From positions 1 through 31,551 of the IMG/VR virus record IMGVR_UViG_3300011440_000048: a DNA stretch of 31,551 nucleotides. One strand, written 5' to 3'. The position numbers and the translations under genes are program-made. Below the pieces are notes generated by a model that worked only from the letters and a program-made list of their open reading frames with translations, made no database searches and had not been told where the DNA came from. Positions 3,843-30,831 of this stretch are shown one piece after another (the first letter of the stretch is position 1; each line of letters starts with the position of its first letter). Source of the DNA: a virus.

Positions 3843-4823
3843 ATGCCCCACGTCTTTGATTATTCAACGGGTCGCCCAAATCATGCAACACTTGTTTTAG
3901 TTGGAGCACTTGGTGTCTGCCGTTATTTGTCGAAGCACGGAGTCGATCAATCACGATGGGCGTTTAACGACGCAAAACGTATTCGCCCACCCGAATATGA
4001 ATCTCTTGAAGCGCACAGAATTCCTATCACACTTAATTGTCAGGTAGACAAAGCTGATTGGCAGGGTGGTTATTCACGGGGAGTAGAACACGGCCGAATG
4101 GCTTTGGCACAATGTCGTGAATTAGGTCATCCTCTTTCTCGGCCAGTTATTTTCACTGTGCAGGATTCAGGAATTCCATCTAGTAGTCTTCATCTGGCCG
4201 TCGAATATATGCACGGATGTATGGACGGCAACGAACGTGGACCGCAGCCTCTCTATGGCGGCACCACAGTTATCAATGCGTGTGTTGAAGCAGGATACGC
4301 AACATGGGGATGGTTACCCGAGGATGCAACATCGTGGTCACCAAAACCAAGCCCCTATATAAGACTTGTTCAGCACGGTAGTAAGTCTTACCCGCAACTA
4401 GGTGTCCCTTATGATGAAAACACCCCACTTCACGAAGATTGGGGACAGTACCCACTACCATCAATCCCTCCGAAGGAGGAAATAATGGCATTCCTATCAA
4501 AGAACGTAGCAGGTTCGCCTATTGTTGTGGCGGCAGATTGCAGTAGCTGGTTTTACGCTTCTGCTGAATTAGCCGGTGCGCTGACAAAGGCAGGCTACGA
4601 GACAGTTCCGATGCTGCAATCAGACATTGATCGAATTCCTTATGTTCATAGTCTTACGCACGCTCTAATCGCTGCCGTACTACACGCTGCGGACAATGTA
4701 GACTTTACACTTACTCCTGAACAAATTCAGGTAATTGCGGATAGTGTCCAGATTGGAGATGCACAACTGGCAGCAATCGCTAAGGCAGTAGCGGACGAAG
4801 ATCACAGGAGGTCGTCAGAATAA
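3843..4823 (+). CDS. Second lysin: Rv2525c-like (DUF1906) glycoside-hydrolase-like protein
   Basis: 326 residues from ATG 3843, one base after the amidase stop; an in-frame ATG at 3819 would overlap the amidase and is less likely. Residues ~3-200 match the DUF1906/Rv2525c TIM-barrel pattern: HVFDYSTGRPN with D6, GVCRYLS, the strand VIFTVQDSG (102-110), PLYGGTTVI (137-145) and the late RLVQHG (174-179). This family is GH25-like and occurs in actinobacterial secreted proteins and phage lysins. Hydrolysis of a wall glycan is inferred, not shown. Residues ~215-326 are a distinct C-terminal region with its own strong ribosome-binding site and start (see 4485-4823). The amidase/DUF1906 pair replaces the usual single modular lysin. 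Confidence 0.75.
   Translation: MPHVFDYSTGRPNHATLVLVGALGVCRYLSKHGVDQSRWAFNDAKRIRPPEYESLEAHRIPITLNCQVDKADWQGGYSRGVEHGRMALAQCRELGHPLSRPVIFTVQDSGIPSSSLHLAVEYMHGCMDGNERGPQPLYGGTTVINACVEAGYATWGWLPEDATSWSPKPSPYIRLVQHGSKSYPQLGVPYDENTPLHEDWGQYPLPSIPPKEEIMAFLSKNVAGSPIVVAADCSSWFYASAELAGALTKAGYETVPMLQSDIDRIPYVHSLTHALIAAVLHAADNVDFTLTPEQIQVIADSVQIGDAQLAAIAKAVADEDHRRSSE
4473..4479 (+). promoter_or_regulatory. Internal Shine-Dalgarno AAGGAGG inside the lysin gene
   Basis: AAGGAGG lies five bases before an in-frame ATG at 4485 within the DUF1906 lysin. Both the match to anti-SD and the spacing are close to ideal and better than those of most true gene starts in this window. It probably directs internal initiation. 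Confidence 0.6.
4485..4823 (+). CDS. Internal-start product: C-terminal domain of the DUF1906 lysin
   Basis: An in-frame ATG at 4485 (codon 215 of the 326-codon lysin) follows an excellent SD and would yield a 112-residue protein starting MAFLSKNVAGSP. It contains an N-terminal half with alternating hydrophobic segments (IVVAADCSSWFYASAELAGAL) and a C-terminal helical part (FTLTPEQIQVIADS, then AIAKAVADE). Secondary in-frame translation of the binding domain is documented for some other phage endolysins, where the short product assembles with the full-length enzyme. That analogy is inference here. Alternatively, the site is a relic of a gene fusion. The next gene's SD (4806-4811) sits within the last codons. 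Confidence 0.5.
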   Translation: MAFLSKNVAGSPIVVAADCSSWFYASAELAGALTKAGYETVPMLQSDIDRIPYVHSLTHALIAAVLHAADNVDFTLTPEQIQVIADSVQIGDAQLAAIAKAVADEDHRRSSE

Positions 4824-10746: not shown

Positions 10747-11964
10747 ATGCCTGGCGCAACAATGACAACGGTCAACTCCATGCTCAAAGAGATTTATGAG
10801 GGCAAGATCGAAGATCAGAAGAACGAGGAAGTCATCGCTGTAAAGCGAATCGAAAGTTCCTCGGAGAATGTGGTCGATACGGTTGGTGGCAAGTATGTCA
10901 CTTTCCCGATTCGCACTCGTCGTAACACTGGTGTTTCCTACCGTGCAGAAGATACGGCACTTGGCGCTGCCGGCCAGCAAGGTTATGCGGCGGTCCAGGT
11001 TCCTCTTAAGTACGGATATGGTCGATTCCGTGTTACTGGTCAGGTAATGGAACTTGCGGAAACAAACCCGCAGGCTTTCTCGTCTGCCCTCGATGAGGAA
11101 ATGGACGGACTTAAGACTGACGTTGTTAAGGATGAGAACCGAATCGCTTATGGTGTTTACCAGGGCGAGAACGCTGCTCTTGCTAAGGTTATTGCAGCTT
11201 TCACGGCTACCACAACGATTAACGTTGATACTGTTCAGTTCCTTTCGATTGGTGAGCAGATTGACATTAGGAACGTAACAACGGGGTCTGTGGCAACTGG
11301 TGTTGCCAACGTGACGATTACTGATATCGTTTCGCCTACCCAGATTACGATTTCTGCGGCAACAGCCCTGACGGATGCGAACTCTCGTATCTATCGTGAA
11401 GGTAACCGACTCTTGGAGCCGACTTCCTTCTCTGATATTACTTCTGCAACTTCTGTTCTGCATGGTCTTGATCCTGCTGTCCAGAAGGTGTGGAAGGGAA
11501 ACACTGTTGCAATTGCAGGTGCTTTGTCTGAGCTTAATATGATTAAGGCTTGTGACCTGGGTCGTGTGAATGGTGGAAAGATTTCGGTTATTTTCACTAC
11601 GCTCGGTGTTCGCCGTTCCTACTTCGTACTGCTTACTCAGCAGCGCCGCTATGTTGATACGAAGGCTTTCCCTGGTGGTTTCCAGGGGCTTCCGTTCAAC
11701 TACGGAACTGAGATTCCGGTGGTCGAAGATCCTGATTGCCCGTCCAATGGAACCGCTCCTAATACTGGACAGATGTTCTACATGGATGAGACAAAGATCA
11801 AGAAGTACCGCAAGCGTCCTTGGTACTTCTCGGATGTTGATGGTTCTATCTTCAAGTGGGTTTCTGGCTTCGATGCCTGGGAAGGCATGATGAAGTGCTA
11901 CTTTGAATATGGGACTTCTCAGCGTAACGCTCACGTCCTGCATACAGGCGTACTGGAATCGTAA
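10747..11964 (+). CDS. Major capsid protein (HK97-fold candidate)
   Basis: 405 residues, start fixed by the AGGAGG site. Visible elements: N-terminal helix (MLKEIYEGKIEDQKNEEVI), an E-loop-like beta region (TVGGKYVTFPIRTRRNTGVS), the spine-helix region (MDGLKTDVVKDENRIAYGV), an inserted Val/Thr-rich beta segment at ~157-213 (TINVDTVQFLSIGEQIDIRN), and a P-domain/C-terminal part ending EGMMKCYFEYGTSQRN. The order scaffold-coat without protease and the 405-residue length match short-tailed phage coats. Codon choice avoids TTA, CTA and TCA so consistently that a 453-codon antisense frame stays open across the gene, a sign of strong bias rather than a second gene. Confidence 0.85.
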   Translation: MPGATMTTVNSMLKEIYEGKIEDQKNEEVIAVKRIESSSENVVDTVGGKYVTFPIRTRRNTGVSYRAEDTALGAAGQQGYAAVQVPLKYGYGRFRVTGQVMELAETNPQAFSSALDEEMDGLKTDVVKDENRIAYGVYQGENAALAKVIAAFTATTTINVDTVQFLSIGEQIDIRNVTTGSVATGVANVTITDIVSPTQITISAATALTDANSRIYREGNRLLEPTSFSDITSATSVLHGLDPAVQKVWKGNTVAIAGALSELNMIKACDLGRVNGGKISVIFTTLGVRRSYFVLLTQQRRYVDTKAFPGGFQGLPFNYGTEIPVVEDPDCPSNGTAPNTGQMFYMDETKIKKYRKRPWYFSDVDGSIFKWVSGFDAWEGMMKCYFEYGTSQRNAHVLHTGVLES

Positions 11965-12020: not shown

Positions 12021-12290
12021 ATGCCAACTGGAAACAACATTCCTTTCATGCCTGGCGATTATCCTGCCCCTCGGGGCGGAACCCCTAAGCAGAGTTTCAA
12101 CAAGCATCGAAATGGAGTAGGCGCTAGACTTTCTGATGGCGCACCAGATTTTAAAATGGGTCTTGCATCCGGTGGTGGTCAGGGAGATGGTTCTGCTGCA
12201 CTACAAAGGGCTGCTGGGAAAAGATTGATGCACGGTAAGCCCGGAGCATTCGCAGCTAATTACGCTCGGAATTCTAACAATTCCTCGTAA
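12021..12290 (+). CDS. Small basic protein with RAAGKRL motif (1 of 4)
   Basis: 89 residues, with a GGAAAGGAA site upstream. Gly/Pro/Asn-rich, basic and apparently disordered (MPTGNNIPFMPGDYPAPRGG at the start). RAAGKRL lies at residues 63-69, followed by MHGKPGAF. The motif recurs in the next two genes and in 16585-16833. No known family. The position just after the capsid suggests a head-associated or DNA-associated protein. Its stop overlaps the next start (TAATG). Confidence 0.65.
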   Translation: MPTGNNIPFMPGDYPAPRGGTPKQSFNKHRNGVGARLSDGAPDFKMGLASGGGQGDGSAALQRAAGKRLMHGKPGAFAANYARNSNNSS

Positions 12291-12601
12291 TGCCGTTCAA
12301 GTCGGAATCACAGCGTAGATATCTCTGGGCTAATCACCCAGAGATAGCTAAGCGCTGGACTAAAGAGTATGGAGGTAAAGTGCCGAAGGGTCGAGGAAGA
12401 GGGAAATATTCTAGGGCTGCCGGTCGTCGCCTTGGGTTGGATGGTGGTAAAGGTCCAAGAGGGGAAAAAGTGGGCGGACCATCAGAAGATGATGGCTATG
12501 CTGATTTTGTAGACGCTCAAACTGGTGGAAACCGTCGTCAGCCGATGCACAGAGCAGTTCCCGGTGATGTTAGGAAAAAGAAGGGACAAAGATATGGCTG
12601 A
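12290..12601 (+). CDS. Small basic protein with SQRRYLWANHPEIAKRW and RAAGRRL motifs (2 of 4)
   Basis: 103 residues, TAATG-coupled. The N-terminus MPFKSESQRRYLWANHPEIA followed by KRW is a signature found at the N-terminus of small proteins in many phage and prophage structural clusters. RAAGRRL follows at residues 42-48, then a Gly/Lys/Arg-rich tail. Net charge is strongly positive, consistent with nucleic-acid or capsid-interior contact. The biochemical role of the widespread N-terminal motif is, to my knowledge, unassigned. Confidence 0.7.
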   Translation: MPFKSESQRRYLWANHPEIAKRWTKEYGGKVPKGRGRGKYSRAAGRRLGLDGGKGPRGEKVGGPSEDDGYADFVDAQTGGNRRQPMHRAVPGDVRKKKGQRYG

Positions 12602-13022
12602 TAGGGATACGAAAGGAGCTTCTGGTCCGAATAAGGGAACTGCTTATGTAGATAATACTGTTTGGAAACCGGGAACTCCACAGTCCCCTGCGTCGAAAAA
12701 AGCACAACGCGAAAGGATTAATGTGACTAATGATCAAAGGACGGGATTTCGTCGCCCTGGAATTATTTCCAAAGGCGCCGCTGGTCCTGGTAAGGGGGCA
12801 ACAGTAATTTCTTCAATGGCTAGTGATAGAGATCCTGGGGCTGGAACGGATAGAACTAAATATCTTGGTGGAGCGGCCGCTAAGAGTGGTAATTCAATGA
12901 TGAGAAGGGCTGCTGGTAAGCGTCTTGGATTTGCTAAGGCAGAGGATTCTGCTAAGGGACAACTTAGTGGACTTGGCCCGAGAAGGCCAAAGCCTAATGC
13001 CGGTGCCAAGCGAAAGGGCTAG
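12594..13022 (+). CDS. Small basic protein with RAAGKRL motif (3 of 4)
   Basis: 142 residues from ATG 12594, overlapping the previous gene by eight bases; an earlier in-frame ATG at 12525 would overlap by 77 bases and reads a non-typical leader. Gly/Lys/Pro-rich low-complexity sequence (SGPNKGTAYVDNT, KGAAGPGKGATVISSM), with RAAGKRL at residues 105-111 and a basic C-terminus (RPKPNAGAKRKG). Predicted largely disordered. It ends the three-gene motif cluster and is followed by a strong hairpin. Confidence 0.65.
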   Translation: MADRDTKGASGPNKGTAYVDNTVWKPGTPQSPASKKAQRERINVTNDQRTGFRRPGIISKGAAGPGKGATVISSMASDRDPGAGTDRTKYLGGAAAKSGNSMMRRAAGKRLGFAKAEDSAKGQLSGLGPRRPKPNAGAKRKG

Positions 13023-13066
13023 ATCGTTGTACCCATCAAACCTCCCAGATGGGGCAGCGGGGAAGA

Positions 13067-13109
13067 CGAAAGGGGACTAGGAGTTGTGGGGGCTTTTAGT
13101 CCCCTTTCG
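13067..13109 (+). terminator. Perfect 13-bp hairpin after the small basic gene cluster
   Basis: CGAAAGGGGACTA (13067-13079) pairs with TAGTCCCCTTTCG (13097-13109) across a 17-base loop. There is no following U-tract. It sits in the only sizeable intergenic gap of the head region, between 13022 and 13124, and probably ends or attenuates the capsid/small-protein transcript. Confidence 0.7.
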
Positions 13110-13123
13110 CATTTAGGAGAGAA

Positions 13124-13648
13124 ATGATAGTGCATGAAGGTAGAACAACTAGAACAGAAACCGGGAGCATTTTAACAGCTACGGATCTTCTTCAAGCCAC
13201 CCCCGAAGCGTTAATGCGGGAACAGAGTGACGTCTTTCGTATCGTGGAAAAAATTCGAGCATACGATTCTAATCTAGATATTGCCTATCTAGAGCCAGGC
13301 AAGGGAGAATTGGCGGACGCTCCTTATATCATCTTTGAACGTTGTCGAGATGGAAAAGCTCGAGTTGTTTTCTCTGTCTGGAAACTTGACGATTCTGTAA
13401 TGGATAGGGTCAAGGCCGCCGATACTACGATCTTCGATGTTGAGGGCGCCATTGATCTAGCCAACGCTCGGGCAAGAAAGGCCCAGAAGGATAAGCAGGC
13501 GGAATCGTTTGGCGAAGCTAAGGACGTTGTTAAGCATATCGTGGCGAATCCGAAGGGAACTTATTCATTCCCCAACTCTGCGGGCGAAGTTGTAACTCTG
13601 CGGGATGATGAGGGAATTACAAAGCGTAATGGAAAGTCGGTGACGTGA
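13124..13648 (+). CDS. Head-to-tail region protein, unknown (174 aa)
   Basis: 174 residues, SD AGGAGAG at 13115-13121. Mixed alpha/beta: helical N-terminal half (TDLLQATPEALMREQSDVFR), then two strands (APYIIFERC, KARVVFSVWKL) and a helical Ala/Lys segment (AIDLANARARKAQKDKQAES). It is the first gene after the 13067 hairpin and sits before the connector genes, so a head-completion or connector-associated role is plausible. I do not recognise a family. Confidence 0.6.
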   Translation: MIVHEGRTTRTETGSILTATDLLQATPEALMREQSDVFRIVEKIRAYDSNLDIAYLEPGKGELADAPYIIFERCRDGKARVVFSVWKLDDSVMDRVKAADTTIFDVEGAIDLANARARKAQKDKQAESFGEAKDVVKHIVANPKGTYSFPNSAGEVVTLRDDEGITKRNGKSVT

Positions 13649-13848
13649 AACTCTTTGAACTCAGACGAGAAGAAGATATAACAGGTGTTTCTGGTACAGG
13701 AACTGTCGCAGGTGGAGTTATTTGGCCTGACGGTCGAGTCGCTATGCGCTGGTTTACTGATATCAATTCCACTGTTCTATACGACAATATTGAAGCCGTG
13801 AACCATATTCATGGTCATGATGGTCGTACGAAAGTGGTACTCCTTTGA
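13645..13848 (+). CDS. Small conserved-type actinophage protein (67 aa)
   Basis: GTG start overlaps the upstream stop (GTGA). The pattern DITGVSGTGTVAGGVIWPDG, RVAMRWFTDINSTVLYDNIE and VNHIHGHDGRTKVVLL is one I associate with a very common small actinobacteriophage protein of unknown function (VSGTG..A.GV...DG.V..RW...ST..Y..I..V..IHGH.G). It is all-beta and compact. In this genome it sits inside the structural block and is coupled to the connector gene by its own stop (TTGA). Confidence 0.7.
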   Translation: MKLFELRREEDITGVSGTGTVAGGVIWPDGRVAMRWFTDINSTVLYDNIEAVNHIHGHDGRTKVVLL

Positions 13849-14474
13849 ATCTTGGAGATGTGATTCGTCAGGTACAACGTCTATTCGGTGACTCTTTCGA
13901 GGTTCAGATCGAAGTAGGCGATATAAAAGACTGGGCCAACGAAGCAATCATGCAGGTTGTTCGTCAGGCGGAAACTGCACAGGCTGAGTTTCAAGCCACT
14001 TATGGCCCGACTACTGACGGAGTCACTCTGCCGACACAGTTCATCGGTGAGAAGCGCGTAACTTTTGATGGGGTTCCTTTGGAACGGGTCACCATCAATG
14101 AACTGGACGATATTGGAGTTCTCCCGTCAGACATTGCTGGTAGCCCCTGCAAGTTTTATGTCTGGGGGGATAAAATCTACCTTTGGCCTTTGCCCGCAAC
14201 GAGTGTTACCAACGGGTTGAAGGTTTGGTATGTTCAGGCTCCGGCTAGAATAGATGATCCGAACGTTCCATTGCCCCTCCCTGTAGTATTCCATATGGAC
14301 GTAGTCCGAATGTGTATGGTTCGTGCTCGTGAACTAAACGAGGATTATGAACAGGCCCGAGTATTGAAGCAGGAAGTGGATGCTAATCTCGGTGCTGTAC
14401 GGCATGATCAAGAGAATAGGATGCGAGAGACATTCCCCGTAGTGCGGGATGACCCGGCAGATTGGTGGGGGTAA
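13845..14474 (+). CDS. Head-tail adaptor / tail tubular protein A-like connector
   Basis: 209 residues from a TTG start that overlaps the upstream stop; GTG 13860, with GGAG just upstream, is an alternative start. N-terminal helical bundle (NLGDVIRQVQRLFGDSF, IKDWANEAIMQVVRQAE), a beta middle (KFYVWGDKIYLWPLPATS) and C-terminal helices (VVRMCMVRARELNEDYEQAR). This helical/beta/helical organisation before a beta-propeller-like gene matches the adaptor proteins of short-tailed phages (P22 gp4 or T7 gp11 type). It would form the ring between portal and nozzle. Confidence 0.7.
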   Translation: MNLGDVIRQVQRLFGDSFEVQIEVGDIKDWANEAIMQVVRQAETAQAEFQATYGPTTDGVTLPTQFIGEKRVTFDGVPLERVTINELDDIGVLPSDIAGSPCKFYVWGDKIYLWPLPATSVTNGLKVWYVQAPARIDDPNVPLPLPVVFHMDVVRMCMVRARELNEDYEQARVLKQEVDANLGAVRHDQENRMRETFPVVRDDPADWWG

Positions 14475-16037
14475 ATGCCTATTCCTCGTGAAGATCACAA
14501 GACTATCAGCACCTTCAAGGGTGTTAATGTTTCTGATCCAAATCATGTAATTGATGACAAAGAATTCGAGACTGTCGAGAACTTGATCATTTCTGACACT
14601 GGTGATTTGGTTAGAAGGAAGCCACTGAGATATTTCGCCCTCCCTCCTGATGCTCCGGCAGGTCATGTAGGAATGCTTGGAATCTTCTTTAGCCGAATTC
14701 TATACACTTCTGGTGATACTATCTATCTCACTCCGGTAGACACCGATCTGTCTAATACGGACTTTGCTTTCTCCGGCGCAGGGGAAGATGCTCACTCGGC
14801 TGTTCTTTACAACAAGAACGTCTACGTCTGGTCTAATTCATCGGCTCCATCATTAACAGGCTTTACTGTTTCTGACTGGACGGTTGATGCTCCTACAATT
14901 GGAGCAGCTACCCTAACGGGAACCCCTCCCGATGATATTATTAAGTCAGTGATTTTCAAGGATCGTTGCTTTGCAATTAAAAACCCTCAGGCACAATCTA
15001 GCCGAGTGTTCTTCTCGGAAATTACTGATCCAGGAAACTGGCAGGCGAATGGTTTCTTTGACGTTGTTCCTGGTGACGGAGATTACATTACAGACATTCT
15101 TCCATTTGGAGAACGCCTATTCATCTTTAAGAGGAACGCAACATACTACCTAATCCCGGCCGCTTTGCCTGCTTCCTGGATTGTGAAGCTTTTCGATAAT
15201 GGAATTGGTGCAGCAATTCCCTATGCAGTTCTTGAATATCGTGGACTAATCTATACGCTGAGTCTGCGAGGGTTGTATAGATCAGATGGAGTTGTTTACG
15301 ATTATGCTGGATATTCTATTCAGAAACGTTGGGAAACACACCCCATTAATATCGATTTGGCTGGTGCTTCTCCTAATTTCTTTATCACTCTGGTTGATGA
15401 TTATCTCTTTATTTATACTGGAACAAGTGGGATTGGGCATTGGTTCTATAACCCAGTTCAAAATGCCTGGACTGAATGCATTTTTCCTTCCACCCAGATT
15501 GCTGAGGGTGCTCTAGCTTACGGTATCCAGGGATATCTTAAGAACGGGACAAGAGGAACTTGGTTTGGCTGGTTGCATGGAACCAATGCAAATGTGCTGT
15601 GGTTTGGATTGCAAGATCCAGACCATCCCGCTAATGCAGACTATTCTGATTATGTCCTGCACCATGCTACTCCCGGTTCTAGAGTGATTACTCCTATTCA
15701 TACTACGTTTAAGTCGAAATCTTGGGATAATGGTGCTTTCTATCGAGTGAAGCGTCACAAGTATTCCACCCTTGAAATGACAGTTCCTGCCCAAGAGGTA
15801 GTAGGAAATGGTGAGTTTAGAACCCACCATAATTTTGATTTAGACCAGGTTACTAATCAGCACGAGTTCCTGGTTCTGCCTAATCAGAGGGGGACACTGG
15901 CGCACAAGATTCCTGGCTGCGGTTATAATAGAAGACTCCAATTGGAATTTGATTCCGATACTGTTCTGGAATATATTATAACCGGCTATGACTTAGACTT
16001 CTTTAATAAGCGCACGCTGTCGGAGAATCCGCAATGA
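14475..16037 (+). CDS. Tail nozzle / tail tubular protein B-like (beta-propeller candidate)
   Basis: 520 residues, ATG directly after the adaptor stop. Almost entirely beta with repeated Trp/Tyr/Phe blades. It contains a segment typical of nozzle/stabilisation proteins: VVPGDGDYITDILPFGERLF followed by IFKRNATYYLI (residues ~197-228), and SLRGLYRSDG soon after. The gene order portal, coat, adaptor, propeller is the P22 gp10/T7 gp12 arrangement. It would form the distal nozzle that closes the DNA channel and carries fibres. Homology is inferred from pattern and context. Confidence 0.75.
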   Translation: MPIPREDHKTISTFKGVNVSDPNHVIDDKEFETVENLIISDTGDLVRRKPLRYFALPPDAPAGHVGMLGIFFSRILYTSGDTIYLTPVDTDLSNTDFAFSGAGEDAHSAVLYNKNVYVWSNSSAPSLTGFTVSDWTVDAPTIGAATLTGTPPDDIIKSVIFKDRCFAIKNPQAQSSRVFFSEITDPGNWQANGFFDVVPGDGDYITDILPFGERLFIFKRNATYYLIPAALPASWIVKLFDNGIGAAIPYAVLEYRGLIYTLSLRGLYRSDGVVYDYAGYSIQKRWETHPINIDLAGASPNFFITLVDDYLFIYTGTSGIGHWFYNPVQNAWTECIFPSTQIAEGALAYGIQGYLKNGTRGTWFGWLHGTNANVLWFGLQDPDHPANADYSDYVLHHATPGSRVITPIHTTFKSKSWDNGAFYRVKRHKYSTLEMTVPAQEVVGNGEFRTHHNFDLDQVTNQHEFLVLPNQRGTLAHKIPGCGYNRRLQLEFDSDTVLEYIITGYDLDFFNKRTLSENPQ

Positions 16038-16588
16038 GTGATTTCGACCCAAATCAGAATGAGCGTGAGGGTCACTCTCATAGAACTCAGGAAGAACGCC
16101 GTGCATTAGCCCTTCTATCCGATTTATCTAAAGCATTAGATGTCCAGCACCATGATACTTCGTTACGTCATACTTTCGGTGGAGCGTTTGATTCTCCTGT
16201 GGCAGTATCAGATATGGCTTCGATCGGATCTATAGGTATGGCGGACAGTCCGGCACGGTCAGATCATAGCCATGGACCAGAGATACCGGTTTGGATAACA
16301 CCTACATTTCTTAACTCATGGACAGATTTCGGCGGAGGAACTCGAACGGCCCGATATACAAAAATTGGTGGAGTTGTTCATATTCAAGGTACAATTAAAA
16401 GTGGAACGATGACACTTCCTGCTTTCGTACTTGATGTGGGTTATAGACCTTCCGGTCAAATGCTTTTTTCTCAACTTGATGGGCTTAACTTAACTGGTCG
16501 ATTGGACGTTACTTCTGTCGGTGCAGTTGTGCCTGTCACGGGGAATAACGCTCTTTTCACTATTAACTGTTCATTTGTTCCAGGATGA
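16034..16588 (+). CDS. Tail appendage protein with C-terminal beta domain
   Basis: 184 residues, ATGA overlap with the nozzle gene. A polar, His/Arg-rich N-terminal half (NQNEREGHSHRTQEERRAL) contains a short helix. Residues ~88-184 form a beta domain (WTDFGGGTRTARYTKIGGVV, then VHIQGTIKSG and VPVTGNNALFTINCSFVPG) of a type frequently seen at the distal end of phage fibres and baseplate proteins. A receptor- or glycan-contacting role is plausible. Confidence 0.65.
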   Translation: MSDFDPNQNEREGHSHRTQEERRALALLSDLSKALDVQHHDTSLRHTFGGAFDSPVAVSDMASIGSIGMADSPARSDHSHGPEIPVWITPTFLNSWTDFGGGTRTARYTKIGGVVHIQGTIKSGTMTLPAFVLDVGYRPSGQMLFSQLDGLNLTGRLDVTSVGAVVPVTGNNALFTINCSFVPG

Positions 16589-16833
16589 TTAGGAACTTGA
16601 CGATGTATCAACCTATGAAGTCAAATACACTCCGACAAGGGAAGAGACTCTATGGGTTTAGTGGCACGAACTCCCCTAATTTTAAGGGGGCAACTGCTGT
16701 TAGACCCGACGATTCTTTTAAAGACCTTCAACGAACTTTAGGTCCTATTAAATACGAACCCAAGAAGCTCCACAGAGCTATTGGGAGGAGGCTAGATAAT
16801 GGCTCTACAGGACGTTCTGGCAGGATTTACTAA
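16585..16833 (+). CDS. Small basic protein with RAIGRRL motif (4 of 4)
   Basis: 82 residues, ATGA overlap. Asn/Gly/Lys/Arg-rich with an N-terminal RQGKRLYGF (residues 17-25) and a C-terminal RAIGRRL at 64-70. The latter matches RAAG[KR]RL in the three genes after the capsid, more than 3.5 kb upstream. It overlaps the following gene by 35 bases and carries that gene's GGGAGGAGG ribosome site in its last codons. Function unknown. The shared motif suggests a common partner. Confidence 0.65.
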   Translation: MIRNLTMYQPMKSNTLRQGKRLYGFSGTNSPNFKGATAVRPDDSFKDLQRTLGPIKYEPKKLHRAIGRRLDNGSTGRSGRIY

Positions 16834-17551
16834 TCCCGCTTCTCAAAGATCTGCAATCCTACAGCGGTTGGGTATTGATTCTAACCGAGCCGCAGGGTTC
16901 GGAGGAAACACGCAGTTTGATCAGTCTATGTCGGACTTGTATCGGCAGGGACTTCAATCATCTGCTCAGTATGATACAGAAGAAGGAAACCTGAATCGGA
17001 CTTATGAGCAGAACTTCGCTCAGTCCGCAATTGATCGAGATAGGGCTTTGGAAGCCCTTAAGGGCAGCTTTGCTCAGAGGGGGCAGAGTTTCTCTGGCGC
17101 CCATGTTGATGAAGTCGGTCGTACTAACGCAGACTTCGATCGTTACATTGCAAACCTCGGCGCAAATCGTGATTCCGGTATTCAAGGGATTGGAAGGAAT
17201 CGTCTCAATTTGGAGCAGGGTTTGACTTCTGGTCGAATGGCTGCGGAATCGGGTTATGGAACTGATTTGCAGGCGTTCCTTCATCAACAGGCAATTGATC
17301 TGTGGAACTCTGTAATGCAACAGAATGCAATGCAGCAGCCACAAGGTGGTGGAGGTGGATATTCTGCTCCCCGTCCTGCACCTTCTAGGAGTTCGCCTAC
17401 TTCGGCTCCCGCTAGATCATCTGCTCCCGCTCCATATAATCCTATGCCAGCACCGGCTCCTGCTCCGGCAATTCCAATGCGTCCCGCTCCAACTAGTATT
17501 CCTCCGAAGCCTGTGCTTAAGGGACAAGGTTATGGAGGGCGGCAATTCTAA
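16799..17551 (+). CDS. Putative internal virion/ejection protein 1
   Basis: 250 residues, SD GGGAGGAGG. Residues 1-175 are helical, Gln/Asn/Arg-rich (FDQSMSDLYRQGLQSSAQYD, AIDLWNSVMQQNAMQQ). Residues ~180-240 are a Pro/Ala/Ser-rich disordered tail with repeated PAPAPA. This is the first of three consecutive genes of rising size (250, 277, 1442 residues) after the nozzle, resembling the gp14-gp15-gp16 order of ejection proteins in T7-like phages. There is no clear sequence match, so the assignment rests on order and composition. Confidence 0.55.
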   Translation: MALQDVLAGFTNPASQRSAILQRLGIDSNRAAGFGGNTQFDQSMSDLYRQGLQSSAQYDTEEGNLNRTYEQNFAQSAIDRDRALEALKGSFAQRGQSFSGAHVDEVGRTNADFDRYIANLGANRDSGIQGIGRNRLNLEQGLTSGRMAAESGYGTDLQAFLHQQAIDLWNSVMQQNAMQQPQGGGGGYSAPRPAPSRSSPTSAPARSSAPAPYNPMPAPAPAPAIPMRPAPTSIPPKPVLKGQGYGGRQF

Positions 17552-18385
17552 ATGGCAGAGATTTCTCAATGGGTTAAAGACGCTAGAGCTTGGACGTCTG
17601 CAACAAAGGGTAATGCAGCTAAGGCTGCTTTTGGTGGTTTGCCGCCCGAAGTTCAAGACGTGGCTGGAAAGATTTCCGATCTGTACGAAGGACTTAGGTA
17701 TGGAGCGGAAGATGCAGTAGATCAGTATGATGCTCGGTCAAATGCTGCCCGAGAGCAAATGATGAGCCAGTTTGCTAATACTGATGCTACTGTTCAAGCT
17801 GGTTATCAGAACTCTCAGAACTATCAATCTGAGATTGCTAAGCGTCTTGGGCTAGAAGATGCCCTAAAGGGTCCTGGTGTTGAGAGTACGAATCAACAGA
17901 TGAATCAGATTCTCAACATGAACAAAGCCAATCGTACTAATCAGATGGCTTCATATGATCTTCTAAAGGGCGGTTACGGAGAACTTCTTAGGGATCGTCT
18001 TGGTTCCTTTGACGTTCAAGCGGGAACATCTCTAGCTAATCTTCTCGCTCAAATGCAAGGGCTACAAGCACAAGCCGGTGGAGGTTCTGGTGGCGGTGGC
18101 GGTGGAGGGGGCGGGGGAAGAAGTGGCGGACGAGGAAGGAGTGGAAAGAAGAGTGGAAGTTCTAGTGGAAGTTCGCCAGGAATGCCTGCGGAACAAATGG
18201 CTTTTATTGCAATTAATCCTTACAATCCCCCTTCTGGTTCTACTTACTCGTCAGATTATGTCCGCCCAGAAAGACGAGGCGGGATGGCTCCAGTAAAGAC
18301 TTCAAAGAAGACGAGTAACGCTAAGAAGATTACCGCCACTAAGGGCGGAGCGAGGCGCCCTATGCTCCTAAAAGGAAGGCGCTAA
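17552..18385 (+). CDS. Putative internal virion/ejection protein 2, Gly/Arg-rich
   Basis: 277 residues, starting the base after the previous stop with GGAGGG upstream. Helical Gln/Asn/Met-rich N-terminal 165 residues (YQNSQNYQSEIAKRLGLE, MNQILNMNKANRTNQMAS). These are followed by a Gly run (~170-195) that passes into an RGG/SGS-type basic segment (GGRSGGRGRSGKKSG) and a Lys/Arg-rich C-terminus (GGARRPMLLKGRR). The basic low-complexity tail suggests nucleic-acid contact inside the head. Second of the three ejection-type genes. Confidence 0.55.
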   Translation: MAEISQWVKDARAWTSATKGNAAKAAFGGLPPEVQDVAGKISDLYEGLRYGAEDAVDQYDARSNAAREQMMSQFANTDATVQAGYQNSQNYQSEIAKRLGLEDALKGPGVESTNQQMNQILNMNKANRTNQMASYDLLKGGYGELLRDRLGSFDVQAGTSLANLLAQMQGLQAQAGGGSGGGGGGGGGGRSGGRGRSGKKSGSSSGSSPGMPAEQMAFIAINPYNPPSGSTYSSDYVRPERRGGMAPVKTSKKTSNAKKITATKGGARRPMLLKGRR

Positions 18386-22837: not shown

Positions 22838-23329
22838 ATGAGCACGGATGGCGAGGGATGGTCCCCGCCTTGCTTGCATAATACGGATCTTTTCTTTGTG
22901 GGGGAAGATAAGGTCAAGGAAATAGCCAAAGCTAAAGCCATTTGTATGAAATGCGCTAGGCGGAAGGATTGCGAGGCTGGCGCCATAAGGCGTGATGAAC
23001 AATACGGGGTTTGGGGCGGTTACTCGTATTCTGAGAGATTGGCTCGGGCGCCTTTTCTGGAATATCAGGAACCCACAATTTATGCTTCACCCCGTAGAAC
23101 GCTAGATGCGCTACAGCGTCAAACGTATGACGTCCCTTTGCCCCCCGCTTATACTGTGCCCCTAGAAATCCGTATCCTGCCGGTTTCCGAGTATTCGGCT
23201 GCGCCTCAAACGTCCAATTATTCACCAGACACAGAAGCCGTAGTGCTCCAATTTGCCGCAAGGAAATCCCTTTATCCCATTGATGATCATAGCCAGAACC
23301 TCCCCGATTCTTCGGCCGCGGGTCAATGA
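22838..23329 (+). CDS. whiB: WhiB-family Fe-S transcription regulator with extended tail
   Basis: 163 residues, SD GGGAGG at 22824-22829. The four cluster cysteines are present as C12-X23-C36-X2-C39-X5-C45, and the diagnostic turn GVWGG lies at ~57-61 followed by a basic patch (YSERLARA). WhiB proteins bind a [4Fe-4S] cluster and act on sigma-A-containing RNA polymerase, so this gene may reprogram host or phage transcription. Residues ~83-163 exceed the usual family length (phage versions are mostly about 80-100 residues) and are encoded opposite the catalytic part of the resolvase gene on the other strand. The tail is Pro/Ser/Tyr-rich with no recognised domain. Confidence 0.85.
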   Translation: MSTDGEGWSPPCLHNTDLFFVGEDKVKEIAKAKAICMKCARRKDCEAGAIRRDEQYGVWGGYSYSERLARAPFLEYQEPTIYASPRRTLDALQRQTYDVPLPPAYTVPLEIRILPVSEYSAAPQTSNYSPDTEAVVLQFAARKSLYPIDDHSQNLPDSSAAGQ

Positions 23330-23504
23330 TGTAATCCTCGCAGACTAAAGTTGCTTCGTAACTAACACCCATTCGAGAAACACACCACTCATCAAATGAT
23401 TTCTGACTCATCTCCTGAACCTCAGTGATGGTAAAAGTTCCATCCTCGATTGAGCCGGCCGCGAAACCGATGTGCTCTCCTGGATCAAAGCCATAAAGAA
23501 TCAT
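22956..23504 (-). CDS. RuvC-like Holliday-junction/branched-DNA resolvase
   Basis: 182 residues from the ATG at 23504, which overlaps the polymerase stop as ATGA; an earlier in-frame ATG at 23522 would extend into the polymerase gene. RNase H-fold motifs: MILYGFDPGEHIGFAAG with D7, LVCEDYII with E56, and RHTFDAVAHLAFY with H126 and D129 at the spacing of the last two RuvC catalytic positions. The predicted role is to resolve branched replication/recombination intermediates before packaging, acting with the nearby polymerase, ATPase and Cas4-like nuclease. Residues 141-182 form a Pro/Arg-rich tail lying opposite the whiB core. Last gene of the leftward operon. Confidence 0.8.
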   Translation of the reverse strand: MILYGFDPGEHIGFAAGSIEDGTFTITEVQEMSQKSFDEWCVSRMGVSYEATLVCEDYIIDPRPKNRGGSGYDHQWDKGISLRQIGALRLLCLVNNWTFEAQPNTRKPAGYGFLGAQYKRGAKGRHTFDAVAHLAFYGVKHKLWVPDIPEKAPEPISQNTSNRPKPRIVHHALWRQPRNPSA

Positions 23505-25189
23505 GCGTGCAACACCTTCCACTCAACATGGAATGGAATGCCGAATTGTTCGACAGTCCAGTTAGTCATTACGTCACAGACCTTCTGTGGATCTTCTCCT
23601 TTAGGGTAATTGATCCAGATAGAGTCGTGAACCTGGTTACGAATATCAATGCCTTGCTCTGCTAACGTCAGCATAGAGCGCTTAATGATCTGGAAAGATC
23701 CGCCCTGAATCAAGGAGTTCCACGCATCCTTACATTCCCACTTGTTCTTAAAGATTCTCAGCCGCCCATCCCAATAGCGAATCCACCCACGAGATTCTGC
23801 TAGTTGTTGGCATCTCTTAGCCATCGCAAAGATTTCATGGTACTCCTTCTTATAGTCATTGATGATCCGCTGACCTTCCTTGCGAGGGATTCCGTACTTG
23901 TGGTAGAGAACTTCGACACCACCTAAGTAAATGATGGTGAAGTTCACGTTCTTCGCAATTGGACGAGAGATATTGAGTCTCTGAGCAACTTCTGCATGAA
24001 GGTCGCCATTATTTCTAAAGATTTCCAACAGACCCTTCTGGTCAGCATAGACAGCACCTAGTCTGAACTCGACAGTTCGATAGTCAAATTCGATTAAATC
24101 ATGCCCTTTCTCTGGCATAAACAATTTCTTCACGTCGCCATCTCGGGGGAACTGCTGAGGGTTGGGGTTCTCCGCAGACAGCCTATGAGTGACGGTGCCG
24201 TGCTGCTTAAATGACGGGTGAACGTATCCGCCCTGGTCAGCCTTGTCGGGCAGTCCTTGAAACCATGTTGACGTAGCCTTAGCCAATCCTCTATACTCTA
24301 GTAAGAGACCTGCCTCGGGATGGTTGATGCCTTCGAGCACCGACTCATCGACACTTGGCAATTGACTAGGAGTTTTCTTCGATGGCTGCAAACCTAAACC
24401 TAATGGAGCGTCCCCAAAGAAACGCTTCCGCGCTTGTGAATCTTTCGCTGGATCAAATGGTAGATATGTACGAATCTGATCCATGCGAACTTTGGATTCG
24501 GCTGCAAGCCGCAGAGACTCGGATTGATCTAACAGAAGTCCGACTTCTTCGATCCGCACTAGGAGTCGCATAAACTCCAAATCGATTTCCCAAATAGAAA
24601 GCAAAAGCCATTCCTCCATTTGTGGAAGGAACAACTCATAGAGTTGGTAGGTGGAAACTACGTCGTTGGAAGCGTAGCCAGCCATCACAAATGGGGGAAC
24701 GGCTTCCATTCCATAGTCTTTGCGGATCACCTTAATCTGTTTGACAAGCGCTGCCTTAGTGTCTTTCTTTAGAAGGGCCTTCTCTAAGGCTTCTAGCGTA
24801 TGTCCAGGCCATCCCTTCGGGGGATGGTAAGAGTCTAGCAGATGATGCCAGAGCATCGTATCTATAATGTTCCAGGAGAGAAGATCAATTCCTGTCTTGC
24901 GTAGAACCTTCAAGTCGAACTTAGCGTTGTGAAAGATCAGGGTACAGTCAGGATGAATGTCCTTGGAGAAATCCCAGAGGGGTACATTTTCTACAGGGAT
25001 GAAGGGATGTTCATGGCCGAACGGAACATACCAAGGATCGTCACCTTTAGCGTAGAAAGAGGCACCGACTAAGAATCTCTCGTGATCCAAGTCAGTCATA
25101 TTTGTCTCGGTATCTATGGCCAAGATTCTTTGGCGGCGCAACCAGGTCCGGAAGATTTCAACGTCAGCGTCATCTTGTACGAGAGTCAC
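23501..25189 (-). CDS. DNA polymerase, family A, with 3'-5' exonuclease domain
   Basis: 562 residues, GTG start overlapping the upstream stop (GTGA). Exonuclease motifs: LAIDTETN (D26, E28), IFHNAKFD (D92) and YASNDVV (Y172, D176). Polymerase motif A DYRTVEFR (D369, E374), motif B RPIAKNVNFTIIYLGG (R409, K413, F417, Y421) and motif C VHDSIW (H521, D522). Motif C has Ser523 where family A enzymes usually have Glu (HDE). F417 corresponds to E. coli Phe762. Length is close to other phage enzymes that lack the 5'-3' exonuclease. It should be the replicative polymerase, coupled to the prim-pol/helicase directly upstream. Confidence 0.93.
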   Translation of the reverse strand: MTLVQDDADVEIFRTWLRRQRILAIDTETNMTDLDHERFLVGASFYAKGDDPWYVPFGHEHPFIPVENVPLWDFSKDIHPDCTLIFHNAKFDLKVLRKTGIDLLSWNIIDTMLWHHLLDSYHPPKGWPGHTLEALEKALLKKDTKAALVKQIKVIRKDYGMEAVPPFVMAGYASNDVVSTYQLYELFLPQMEEWLLLSIWEIDLEFMRLLVRIEEVGLLLDQSESLRLAAESKVRMDQIRTYLPFDPAKDSQARKRFFGDAPLGLGLQPSKKTPSQLPSVDESVLEGINHPEAGLLLEYRGLAKATSTWFQGLPDKADQGGYVHPSFKQHGTVTHRLSAENPNPQQFPRDGDVKKLFMPEKGHDLIEFDYRTVEFRLGAVYADQKGLLEIFRNNGDLHAEVAQRLNISRPIAKNVNFTIIYLGGVEVLYHKYGIPRKEGQRIINDYKKEYHEIFAMAKRCQQLAESRGWIRYWDGRLRIFKNKWECKDAWNSLIQGGSFQIIKRSMLTLAEQGIDIRNQVHDSIWINYPKGEDPQKVCDVMTNWTVEQFGIPFHVEWKVLHA

Positions 25190-29459: not shown

Positions 29460-29837
29460 TTATGGCCGCTTAGGCCAGGCCGTGCCAGAATAAATAGGGC
29501 TGAGGCAGTACGGGTACAGGTTGCCAGGCGAACCCGATGAACCCCACGGATCAGGATTCCACTCCCATTTCCAAGAACCACTAATGTTGTCCTTCAAAGA
29601 ACACATCACCAGGACGTAACCAAGTTGTCCAGCGAAGTGTGCCCACGGGCCTTGCATGATGGCGCCGTTTTGAAGAATCCAACGGTAACAGTTGGTGGTC
29701 GTACACCCCGGATTAGTAAGGTGAGTATGGGGTGGTCCTTGTGCTCCAAATGAATGAGCTTCTGCGGGAGAAGTAACTCCCAATGTTCCTGCTGTAATTG
29801 CACCAGCGAGAAGAATTCCCGCCATTCGCTTCCTCAT
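29460..29837 (-). CDS. Secreted small four-cysteine protein
   Basis: 125 residues from ATG 29837, with AAGGAA upstream; the longer frame from 29861 lacks a sensible signal peptide. Residues 1-27 form a classical Sec signal (basic MRKR, hydrophobic MAGILLAGAITAGTLGV, then SPAEA) with predicted cleavage after AEA-27. The mature part has four cysteines (45, 50, 79, 111) that could form two disulfides, and is rich in Trp, Pro, Gly and Tyr (WKWEWNPDPWGSSGS). No membrane anchor or lipobox. An exported host-surface or medium protein is unusual within a replication operon; superinfection exclusion or envelope modification is possible but unproven. Confidence 0.75.
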   Translation of the reverse strand: MRKRMAGILLAGAITAGTLGVTSPAEAHSFGAQGPPHTHLTNPGCTTTNCYRWILQNGAIMQGPWAHFAGQLGYVLVMCSLKDNISGSWKWEWNPDPWGSSGSPGNLYPYCLSPIYSGTAWPKRP

Positions 29838-29857
29838 ATGTTTCCTTTCGTTGAGGA

Positions 29858-30166
29858 TCATTCTAGACTCGTTGCTTCGGCAGGCATTGCCTCGAAGTAA
29901 GCGTCAGGAAAAGAGGGACGCAGGTATTCAATGATTGCGAAGTTAGCCACGTCCAGAAGATACTCCCTGTTATGAGTGTTCTCATAACGAGCTAATCTTG
30001 CTCGGGCATTTCGTCGAGCATGATGAGGAACAGGATAGTTGCTTTCGAGCGGTCCATATTTCTGCTCGCTAAACGCCATCCTGTTCAGCATCATTTGTAG
30101 GGCATCTGCGAAGTCTTGATTATCATAGACTCGACGCAGAACTAATGGGCCGGCTTGTCTAGCCAT
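29858..30166 (-). CDS. Small helical protein with LDVANFAIIEYLRP motif
   Basis: 102 residues from ATG 30166, which overlaps the end of the previous small gene by eight bases and has GTGAGG upstream. Helical throughout: FADALQMMLNRMAFSEQKYG, ARARLARYENTHNREYLLDV and ANFAIIEYLRPSFPDAYFEA. This last pattern (YL.DVANFA..E...P..P.A.F) occurs, to my recollection, in a common actinophage protein family of unknown function. It lies in the early operon before the secreted protein. Confidence 0.65.
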   Translation of the reverse strand: MARQAGPLVLRRVYDNQDFADALQMMLNRMAFSEQKYGPLESNYPVPHHARRNARARLARYENTHNREYLLDVANFAIIEYLRPSFPDAYFEAMPAEATSLE

Positions 30167-30338
30167 TGAAAGCCTCACAAGCAGCAGCCATTGTTAGATG
30201 AGCAGCGGACAAAGTAGCAAGAGCATGAACTTGTGCCCATTGAGCTTTAGAGGGATTGGGGTGTTTAAAATCTGCTACTTTATCTGCCTGATCGAGATAC
30301 TCTGCTGCCTTCTTAAGATGGCCCTGAGTGTCAGACAA
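30159..30338 (-). CDS. Small alanine-rich helical protein (59 aa) with TTG start
   Basis: Begins at TTG 30338 with AAGGAA (30351-30346) seven bases upstream and ends at TAG 30161-30159. The product starts MSDTQGHLKKAAEYLDQADK and ends LTMAAACEAFNG. It fills the gap between its neighbours exactly, overlapping the upstream gene's stop by eight bases and the downstream ATG by eight. The rare start codon would make it easy to miss. Amphipathic helices; function unknown. Confidence 0.7.
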   Translation of the reverse strand: MSDTQGHLKKAAEYLDQADKVADFKHPNPSKAQWAQVHALATLSAAHLTMAAACEAFNG

Positions 30339-30831
30339 AGCAGAGTTCCTTCATCTCTTCGACAATGTTATCGAAGGCACCGGCTTCAATCTCTGCCCGA
30401 AGTTCCTCAACCATCTTAGTTTCCTTAGAGGTAAAGATCCGTACACGATAAATCTTCGCCGTGGAAACTTCCTTGGGAGAAGCTTCGACAAGACCAGTCC
30501 GTTCGAGAATAGTCTTAAGAGTTCGAGTTGCCGTTTCCCTAGAGGGAGAAATAGCAGCAAATCTATCCCAAGCAATGATGAAATTCGTAACGTCGTATTC
30601 TAATTCACCGAAATACTCTGCCGCTGCCTGGTGTGAACGAACTTGTCCACCGGAAGCAGCATTCATCACGCAACCATCCCAAGAAGCGTAGTTGAATATT
30701 CCGCCTCGCTGAATGTAGGCATAGATCTTCTGCCGGGTGGCTATTGAGAACTTACTTACGGTTCGGCGTAGATCATTGGGAATAGAGAATGGTTGCTCGA
30801 AACCGGGCTTTCCCCAGCGACTTTCAGCCAT
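30331..30831 (-). CDS. Unknown early protein (166 aa), possible DNA-binding winged-helix-like
   Basis: 166 residues, overlapping the upstream gene by eight bases. Helical N-terminal half (LRRTVSKFSIATRQKIYAYI) with QVRSHQAAAEYFGELEYDVT. The middle segment ISPSRETATRTLKTILERTG, then LVEASPKEVSTAKIYRVRIF, reads like a recognition helix plus wing (treated as a weak pattern only). The C-terminus is an acidic helix (VEELRAEIEAGAFDNIVEEM). A regulator or replication-initiation accessory is possible; no family recognised. Confidence 0.6.
   Translation of the reverse strand: MAESRWGKPGFEQPFSIPNDLRRTVSKFSIATRQKIYAYIQRGGIFNYASWDGCVMNAASGGQVRSHQAAAEYFGELEYDVTNFIIAWDRFAAISPSRETATRTLKTILERTGLVEASPKEVSTAKIYRVRIFTSKETKMVEELRAEIEAGAFDNIVEEMKELCFV

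Follow-up and report, generated by a model that had tools for sequence, protein, structure and literature searches.

In phages T4 and P1, short N-terminal sequences, namely the capsid-targeting sequence of the T4 internal proteins (IPIII) and the packaging signal of P1 DarB, direct proteins into the head (PMC9024508). In the podovirus T7, the small, basic, mostly extended and ejected virion proteins gp6.7 and gp7.3 were resolved recently; gp6.7 connects the portal barrel with gp14 and gp15 and contributes its short helices to three-helix bundles that include gp14 (PMC11784390). Outside T7, little is known of how podoviruses select the small proteins to be carried and injected. Here we describe a short peptide motif, exemplified by RAAGKRL, that is present in four otherwise different small basic proteins (P1 to P4 below) encoded by a 31.5-kb virus record, IMG/VR IMGVR_UViG_3300011440_000048, analysed over positions 1 to 31,551 (the window). 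We found no description of this motif in the literature searched.

Like the T4 and phage P1 signals, to which we liken it by function only, the motif is a short sequence common to several otherwise different proteins, but it lies mostly at the C-terminus or internally, whereas those signals are N-terminal. Its carriers, as predicted from their genes, resemble T7 gp6.7 and gp7.3 in being small, basic, mostly disordered and encoded in the structural cluster, although the genes of the two T7 proteins lie upstream of the portal gene, unlike those described here. The T7 proteins themselves lack the motif (−2.4 bits for gp6.7 and 0.4 bits for gp7.3 with the P4 profile described below). P22, LUZ24, BPP-1 and P-SSP7 have comparable small genes between the portal, capsid, tail and ejection genes. 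Among the small structural-cluster proteins of T7, P22, LUZ24, BPP-1 and P-SSP7 that we tested, none gave a convincing match, and these phages were set aside as motif carriers. A borderline stretch, AAQTAAGRRQA, occurs near the N-terminus of the T7 internal core protein gp14 (L143; p 0.04, one of 27 tests).

The initial annotation of the window had listed RAAG[KR]RL or RAIGRRL once in each of four small proteins, and all four copies are where it placed them. A six-frame search of the window gave these four strict matches only:

12021–12290, + strand: P1, an 89-residue disordered protein; the motif is residues 63–69.
12207–12227, + strand: motif copy 1, RAAGKRL, in P1 (full context ALQRAAGKRLM).
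12290–12601, + strand: P2, a 103-residue basic protein whose start is coupled to the P1 stop (TAATG).
12413–12433, + strand: motif copy 2, RAAGRRL, in P2.
12594–13022, + strand: P3, a 142-residue basic protein; the best start is the ATG at 12594, overlapping the P2 stop.
12906–12926, + strand: motif copy 3, RAAGKRL, in P3.
16585–16833, + strand: P4, an 82-residue basic protein, possibly starting at 16603 and overlapping the start of ej1, the first presumed ejection gene.
16774–16794, + strand: motif copy 4, RAIGRRL, in P4 (residues 64–70).

The P1–P3 genes lie directly 3′ of the major capsid gene and the P4 gene lies directly 5′ of ej1. Apart from the motif, no convincing similarity links the four proteins to one another, and in a search confined to them the best P1–P3 and P2–P3 alignments pass through the motif (E ~0.001–0.003). 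No Pfam or PHROG match was found for P1, P3 or P4, and PDB matches of P2 were dismissed as chance similarity to designed propellers. P1–P3 have a short DNA string, AGGGCTGCYGG, in common, and synonymous codons vary among the copies (AGG GCT GCT GGG AAA AGA TTG in P1, AGG GCT GCT GGT AAG CGT CTT in P3), so the repeat exists at the level of protein and is not a copied DNA repeat. In six P1 homologues, Q62, A64, A65 and L69 of the motif are invariant. The fuller motif spans about 11 residues, hQxA[AI]xx[RK]R[LIM], and the glycine of RAAG is variable.

The window encodes a terminase, a P22-like portal (PF16510), a scaffold, an SU10-type adaptor, a nozzle, a WhiB protein and DNA polymerase A, together with three large genes in the podovirus ejection-gene position. 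Relatives were found with the major capsid protein as the query:

10747–11964, + strand: major capsid protein (phrog_14242, E 1e-76).

The search gave Arthrobacter phage Jasmine, Microbacterium phage Shocker, Cellulosimicrobium phage DS1 and the uncultured ctEqG8, with 36–43% identity in the capsid protein. The family consists of podoviruses related to isolates from soil actinobacteria. These four phages have the same capsid family and a similar gene order as the window but, unlike it, carry no P1–P3 cassette after the capsid gene. About 100 capsid-bearing loci (labelled L001 and so on) were gathered from IMG/VR and genomes. No solved structure of the capsid protein was found in the PDB.

The motif is a real signal and not an effect of composition. 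Given the composition of each of the four proteins, 7e-6 to 3e-5 occurrences of RA[AI]G[KR]RL would be expected per protein; this pattern was chosen after the data had been seen, and profiles built from other proteins are less biased. A profile of the six P1 homologues finds P2, P3 and P4 at the sites given above, with none of 1000 shuffles matching in each case, and it made no other tested protein from the portal-to-ej3 region significant. The stronger, independent test used a profile of P4 orthologues from distant genomes only, with the clade of the window left out; it recovers the sites in P1, P2, P3 and P4 with shuffle p values of 0.0005, 0.0005, 0.02 and 0.0025, respectively. Across the ~100 loci, the P1 profile gives 64 small proteins a score of 8 bits or more, compared to 10.4 in shuffles, while among proteins longer than 200 residues the numbers are 25 and 28. 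Small proteins of the structural-cluster slots described next match the motif 31 times, its reversal once and column-permuted versions 1.6 times on average. Iterated refinement of the profile was not used for any claim, as it drifts to generic basic helices and takes in a gene adjacent to the capsid gene (the 174-residue gene below).

On the gene maps, the small-protein matches fall in three slots of the structural cluster: A, from portal to scaffold; B, from capsid to the 174-residue gene and the adaptor; and C, from nozzle or tail to the first ejection gene. At the threshold of 8 bits, the P1 profile matches 46 of 314 small proteins in these slots and 10 of 629 elsewhere (Fisher p 1e-14, homologues included). 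With homologues clustered and the P4 family excluded, the P4 profile matches 17/131 slot clusters against 8/456 elsewhere (p 7e-7). The motif ends at most 13 residues from the C-terminus in 29 of the 46 matches, and some cases are N-terminal. The median isoelectric point (pI) of the mostly disordered motif proteins is 11.0, compared to 7.7 for small proteins elsewhere. Nearly all of the 34 loci that span the portal-to-ejection genes encode at least one motif protein. The P1 cassette 3′ of the capsid gene is limited to the nearest relatives, L001–L006; in L097, L114, L118 and others, different motif proteins occupy the post-capsid slot. The view of the initial annotation that otherwise different small basic proteins have a short protein-level motif in common is thus borne out: the motif is widespread in relatives and conserved in the homologues of P1 and P4, where its absence had been named as grounds for rejection.

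As judged from the sequences, the motif is a portable module placed on unrelated small domains. The N-terminus of P2 (approximately residues 1–28) is an MPFKSExQRRYLWxxHPEIAKRW domain that conforms to the pattern MPFKSExQRR(Y/W)(L/M)xxxxPEIAxxW and matches phrog_1375 weakly (E 0.016). This domain, of unknown function, occurs in many phages, and the motif accompanies it in 7 of 13 members within the family compared to 1 of 22 in unrelated phages. The helix is also joined to an MPWTAKxF-type domain (L100, L103), to an HPGFK-type domain (L115, L116) and to the P1, P3 and P4 families; some carriers display no recognisable domain. Furthermore, the motif-bearing C-terminal module of the window's P2 is a stand-alone 70-residue gene in L002, and the motif-plus-tail of P2 in L003 is common to a separate, 91-residue gene of L002. 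The modules are thus disseminated by recombination, and the helix is preserved by selection. The initial annotation had argued that duplication does not explain the repeat, which is half right: the surroundings do differ, but in relatives module exchange has combined the motif with different tails. A version of the motif also accompanies other small domains (HFGLTERA..., YGKKRFAAL...) in L008, L092 and loci related to them, some of these domains being encoded 5′ of the terminase gene; in L092 the motif reads AIQRRI or AVQRRI and is N-terminal.

P4 occurs throughout the family: an iterated hidden Markov model search gave 51 slot-C matches across the clade, DS1, Shocker and Jasmine included, the weakest few of them at chance level. 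Its alignment combines an N-terminal signature, DxRGxxGIxSRGxxxYxGxSxAP, with a C-terminal A[AI]xRRL helix, in which the first alanine of the motif is kept in more than 90% of the aligned family. The window's P4 diverges from the rest (E 0.012) and is tied to them via L006 (55% identical) and L005 (53%). The helix reads ARQDALTRRLM in DS1, where the slot-C gene is at 4309–4488, and ARKNALLRW in Shocker, where the slot-C protein is gp34; a related helix in ctEqG8 reads LKAAARAKL, and the P4 helices of Jasmine and Shocker are degenerate. The AGG AGG codons for the two consecutive arginines of P4 (16786–16791) are at the same time the Shine-Dalgarno sequence of ej1, 7 nt 5′ of its ATG at 16799, an arrangement also found in L005 and L006, the two nearest P4 orthologues. 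In L101, a 389-residue protein in the ej1 position has a P4-like N-terminus fused to it, a hint that P4 and ej1 work together.

Two weaker matches fall in the presumed ejection proteins:

16799–17551, + strand: ej1, 250 residues, presumed first ejection protein by synteny; no Pfam or PHROG match.
16841–16873, + strand: weaker motif copy in ej1, SQRSAILQRLG, residues 15–25 (10.3 bits, shuffle p 0.02).
17819–17851, + strand: weaker motif-like stretch in ej2, NYQSEIAKRLG, residues 90–100 (12.2 bits).

The P4 profile matches 18 of 35 distinct ej1 members, compared to 1.8 in shuffles, 6 with the reversed motif and 4.2 with permuted ones; the position of the match varies between N-terminal, middle and C-terminal. 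The ej2 result (5/14 vs 2.2 in shuffles) is not convincing, and the adaptor (2/62 vs 1.2), ej3 (8/21 vs 4.4) and the 174-residue gene (4/64 vs 2.4) are at or modestly above their shuffles. Scaffold (0/71), portal (1/76), capsid (0/84) and nozzle (0/58) give nothing above chance. The coat and the portal, which the initial annotation had suggested among the possible partners of the motif, do not carry it themselves, nor does the scaffold. The C-terminal helix of the scaffold was considered as a partner that the motif might imitate and was rejected: the alignment of the scaffold proteins closes with VDPSKxxxxxxRxLVAxML, and this sequence fails to match the motif.

The motif is predicted to be a short amphipathic helix of about 11 residues. 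In the AlphaFold2 model of P1, the sole helix comprises residues 57–69 and covers the motif at 63–69, the remainder being coil (mean predicted local distance difference test score, pLDDT, ~56). P4 is modelled with helices at residues 41–52 and 59–72, and the motif at 64–70 belongs to the second, in the best-predicted part of the protein (pLDDT ~72–74). The conserved positions A4, A/I5, R8, L9, h1 and Q2 fall on one side of a helical wheel.

Considering (i) the disordered, basic nature of the carriers, (ii) the helix that they have in common, (iii) their location in the structural slots and (iv) the presence of the helix in ej1, the motif fits a docking or packaging tag, and our leading reading, to which we assign a probability of roughly 0.45, is that it is a docking/packaging helix for a set of virion-interior proteins. 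The helix would bind a common internal surface during procapsid assembly; the tagged proteins would be packed together with the ejection-protein core or onto it, and would then be carried in the virion. As ej1 carries the motif and T7 gp6.7 has a comparable bridging role, the favoured docking site, by analogy, would be the portal-barrel/ejection-core complex; motif helices that bundle among themselves would fit the data just as well. All statements on binding and its partner, on packaging and on injection are inferred here. The co-packaged set of proteins envisaged in the initial annotation is favoured because the motif is confined to slots of the structural cluster and specifically enriched in ej1, with packaging as the conjectural part of that claim. 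We also entertain, more tentatively, a cargo-loading code of podoviruses, in which one short helix that moves among unrelated small domains and is also present in ej1 would specify the core-loaded, co-injected proteins and the set could be swapped via tagged modules.

Several observations weigh against the docking/packaging reading. We found no virion proteomics, binding or genetics data on the motif proteins. The confidence of the AlphaFold models is low (mean pLDDT 56–60), and the segregation of the conserved positions on the helical wheel is not significant (permutation p ~0.26). In the clade of the window, the Arg-Arg codons of P4 are also constrained as a Shine-Dalgarno sequence. The ej1 matches are partly homologous to one another and amount to about six independent sites, and the label “ejection protein” rests on synteny and size only. 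Among the 34 loci, Jasmine has a degenerate version only and L132 and L135 have no recognisable one. Finally, a refined, broader profile gives 306 matches compared to 123 in shuffles, which leaves the borders of the motif fuzzy.

The high pI and disorder of the carriers, the conserved arginine and the frequent K/R of the motif would also be expected of a nucleic-acid-binding helix in protamine-like proteins that neutralise or organise DNA at packaging or after entry, in which case the carriers would have a chemical task and not a partner in common. We consider this unlikely: the most conserved positions include an alanine (63/64), Ala/Ile and a leucine, beyond what charge requires; the signal is lost in composition-preserving shuffles and with the reversed motif; and ej1, whose SQRSAILQRLG is only mildly basic, is marked as well. 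A purely historical origin, in which the copies are remnants of one duplicated small gene with diverged or swapped flanks and the motif is merely its most conserved run, draws on the demonstrable module exchange between L002 and the P2 proteins of the window and L003, and on the DNA string common to P1–P3. Yet the helix is present in ej1 and joined to several N-terminal domains that are unrelated to one another, its place varies from N-terminal through internal to C-terminal, its codons differ, and retention of these residues alone would still need selection, which makes such an origin distinctly improbable.

We give about the same small chance to binding of a host factor after infection, by takeover or counter-defence peptides whose injection would explain why their genes lie in the late cluster. 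Although this is compatible with co-packaging and agrees with a cassette that is variable, mosaic and fast-exchanged in some lineages (L002–L006), as would be expected of injected accessory proteins, small genes outside the structural slots seldom carry the motif, and its presence in the near-universal P4 and in ej1 is expected of a structural and not of a host-specific partner. The arrangement at the end of P4, which places AGG AGG just 5′ of the next start in the window and its two nearest orthologues, raises the question of an artefact in which Shine-Dalgarno sequences embedded near gene ends, read as Arg-Arg, combine with generic basic helices. This is very improbable and largely refuted, since such codons occur in only 7 of 82 motif instances, 6 of them near the next start, the copies in P1–P3 are far from any start, and reversed and permuted motifs fail.

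Other features of the window and its relatives deserve mention. The 174-residue gene (13124–13648) belongs to a conserved family of 155–175 residues without a Pfam match, which gave 75 matches and in most relatives is placed between the capsid and adaptor genes; its product is a candidate motif partner or head-completion protein. A 163–189-residue protein in the portal-to-scaffold slot of L022, L024, L100 and L103 was picked up by the iterated capsid-protein search, either as a spurious match or perhaps as a small relative of the capsid protein. The WhiB-like gene (22838–23329, + strand; PF02467, E 3.5e-14) overlaps a 188-residue open reading frame on the opposite strand (22956–23522, − strand) by ~370 bp, and a parallel exists in Jasmine, where the WhiB gene (29525–30070) overlaps an opposite-strand gene (29736–30413). 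The product of the gene at 47–2197 is a large protein, presumed to be of fibre type, in which LTDAQLRA(T/V)PVPVS-like units are repeated; it has no Pfam match.

If the docking/packaging reading is true, the tag would allow virion proteins to be predicted from small genes that are so far anonymous, in a phage family that is large and mostly uncultured. Peptides that are co-injected could then be spotted by rule from their sequences, and the helix would be a compact candidate for targeting.

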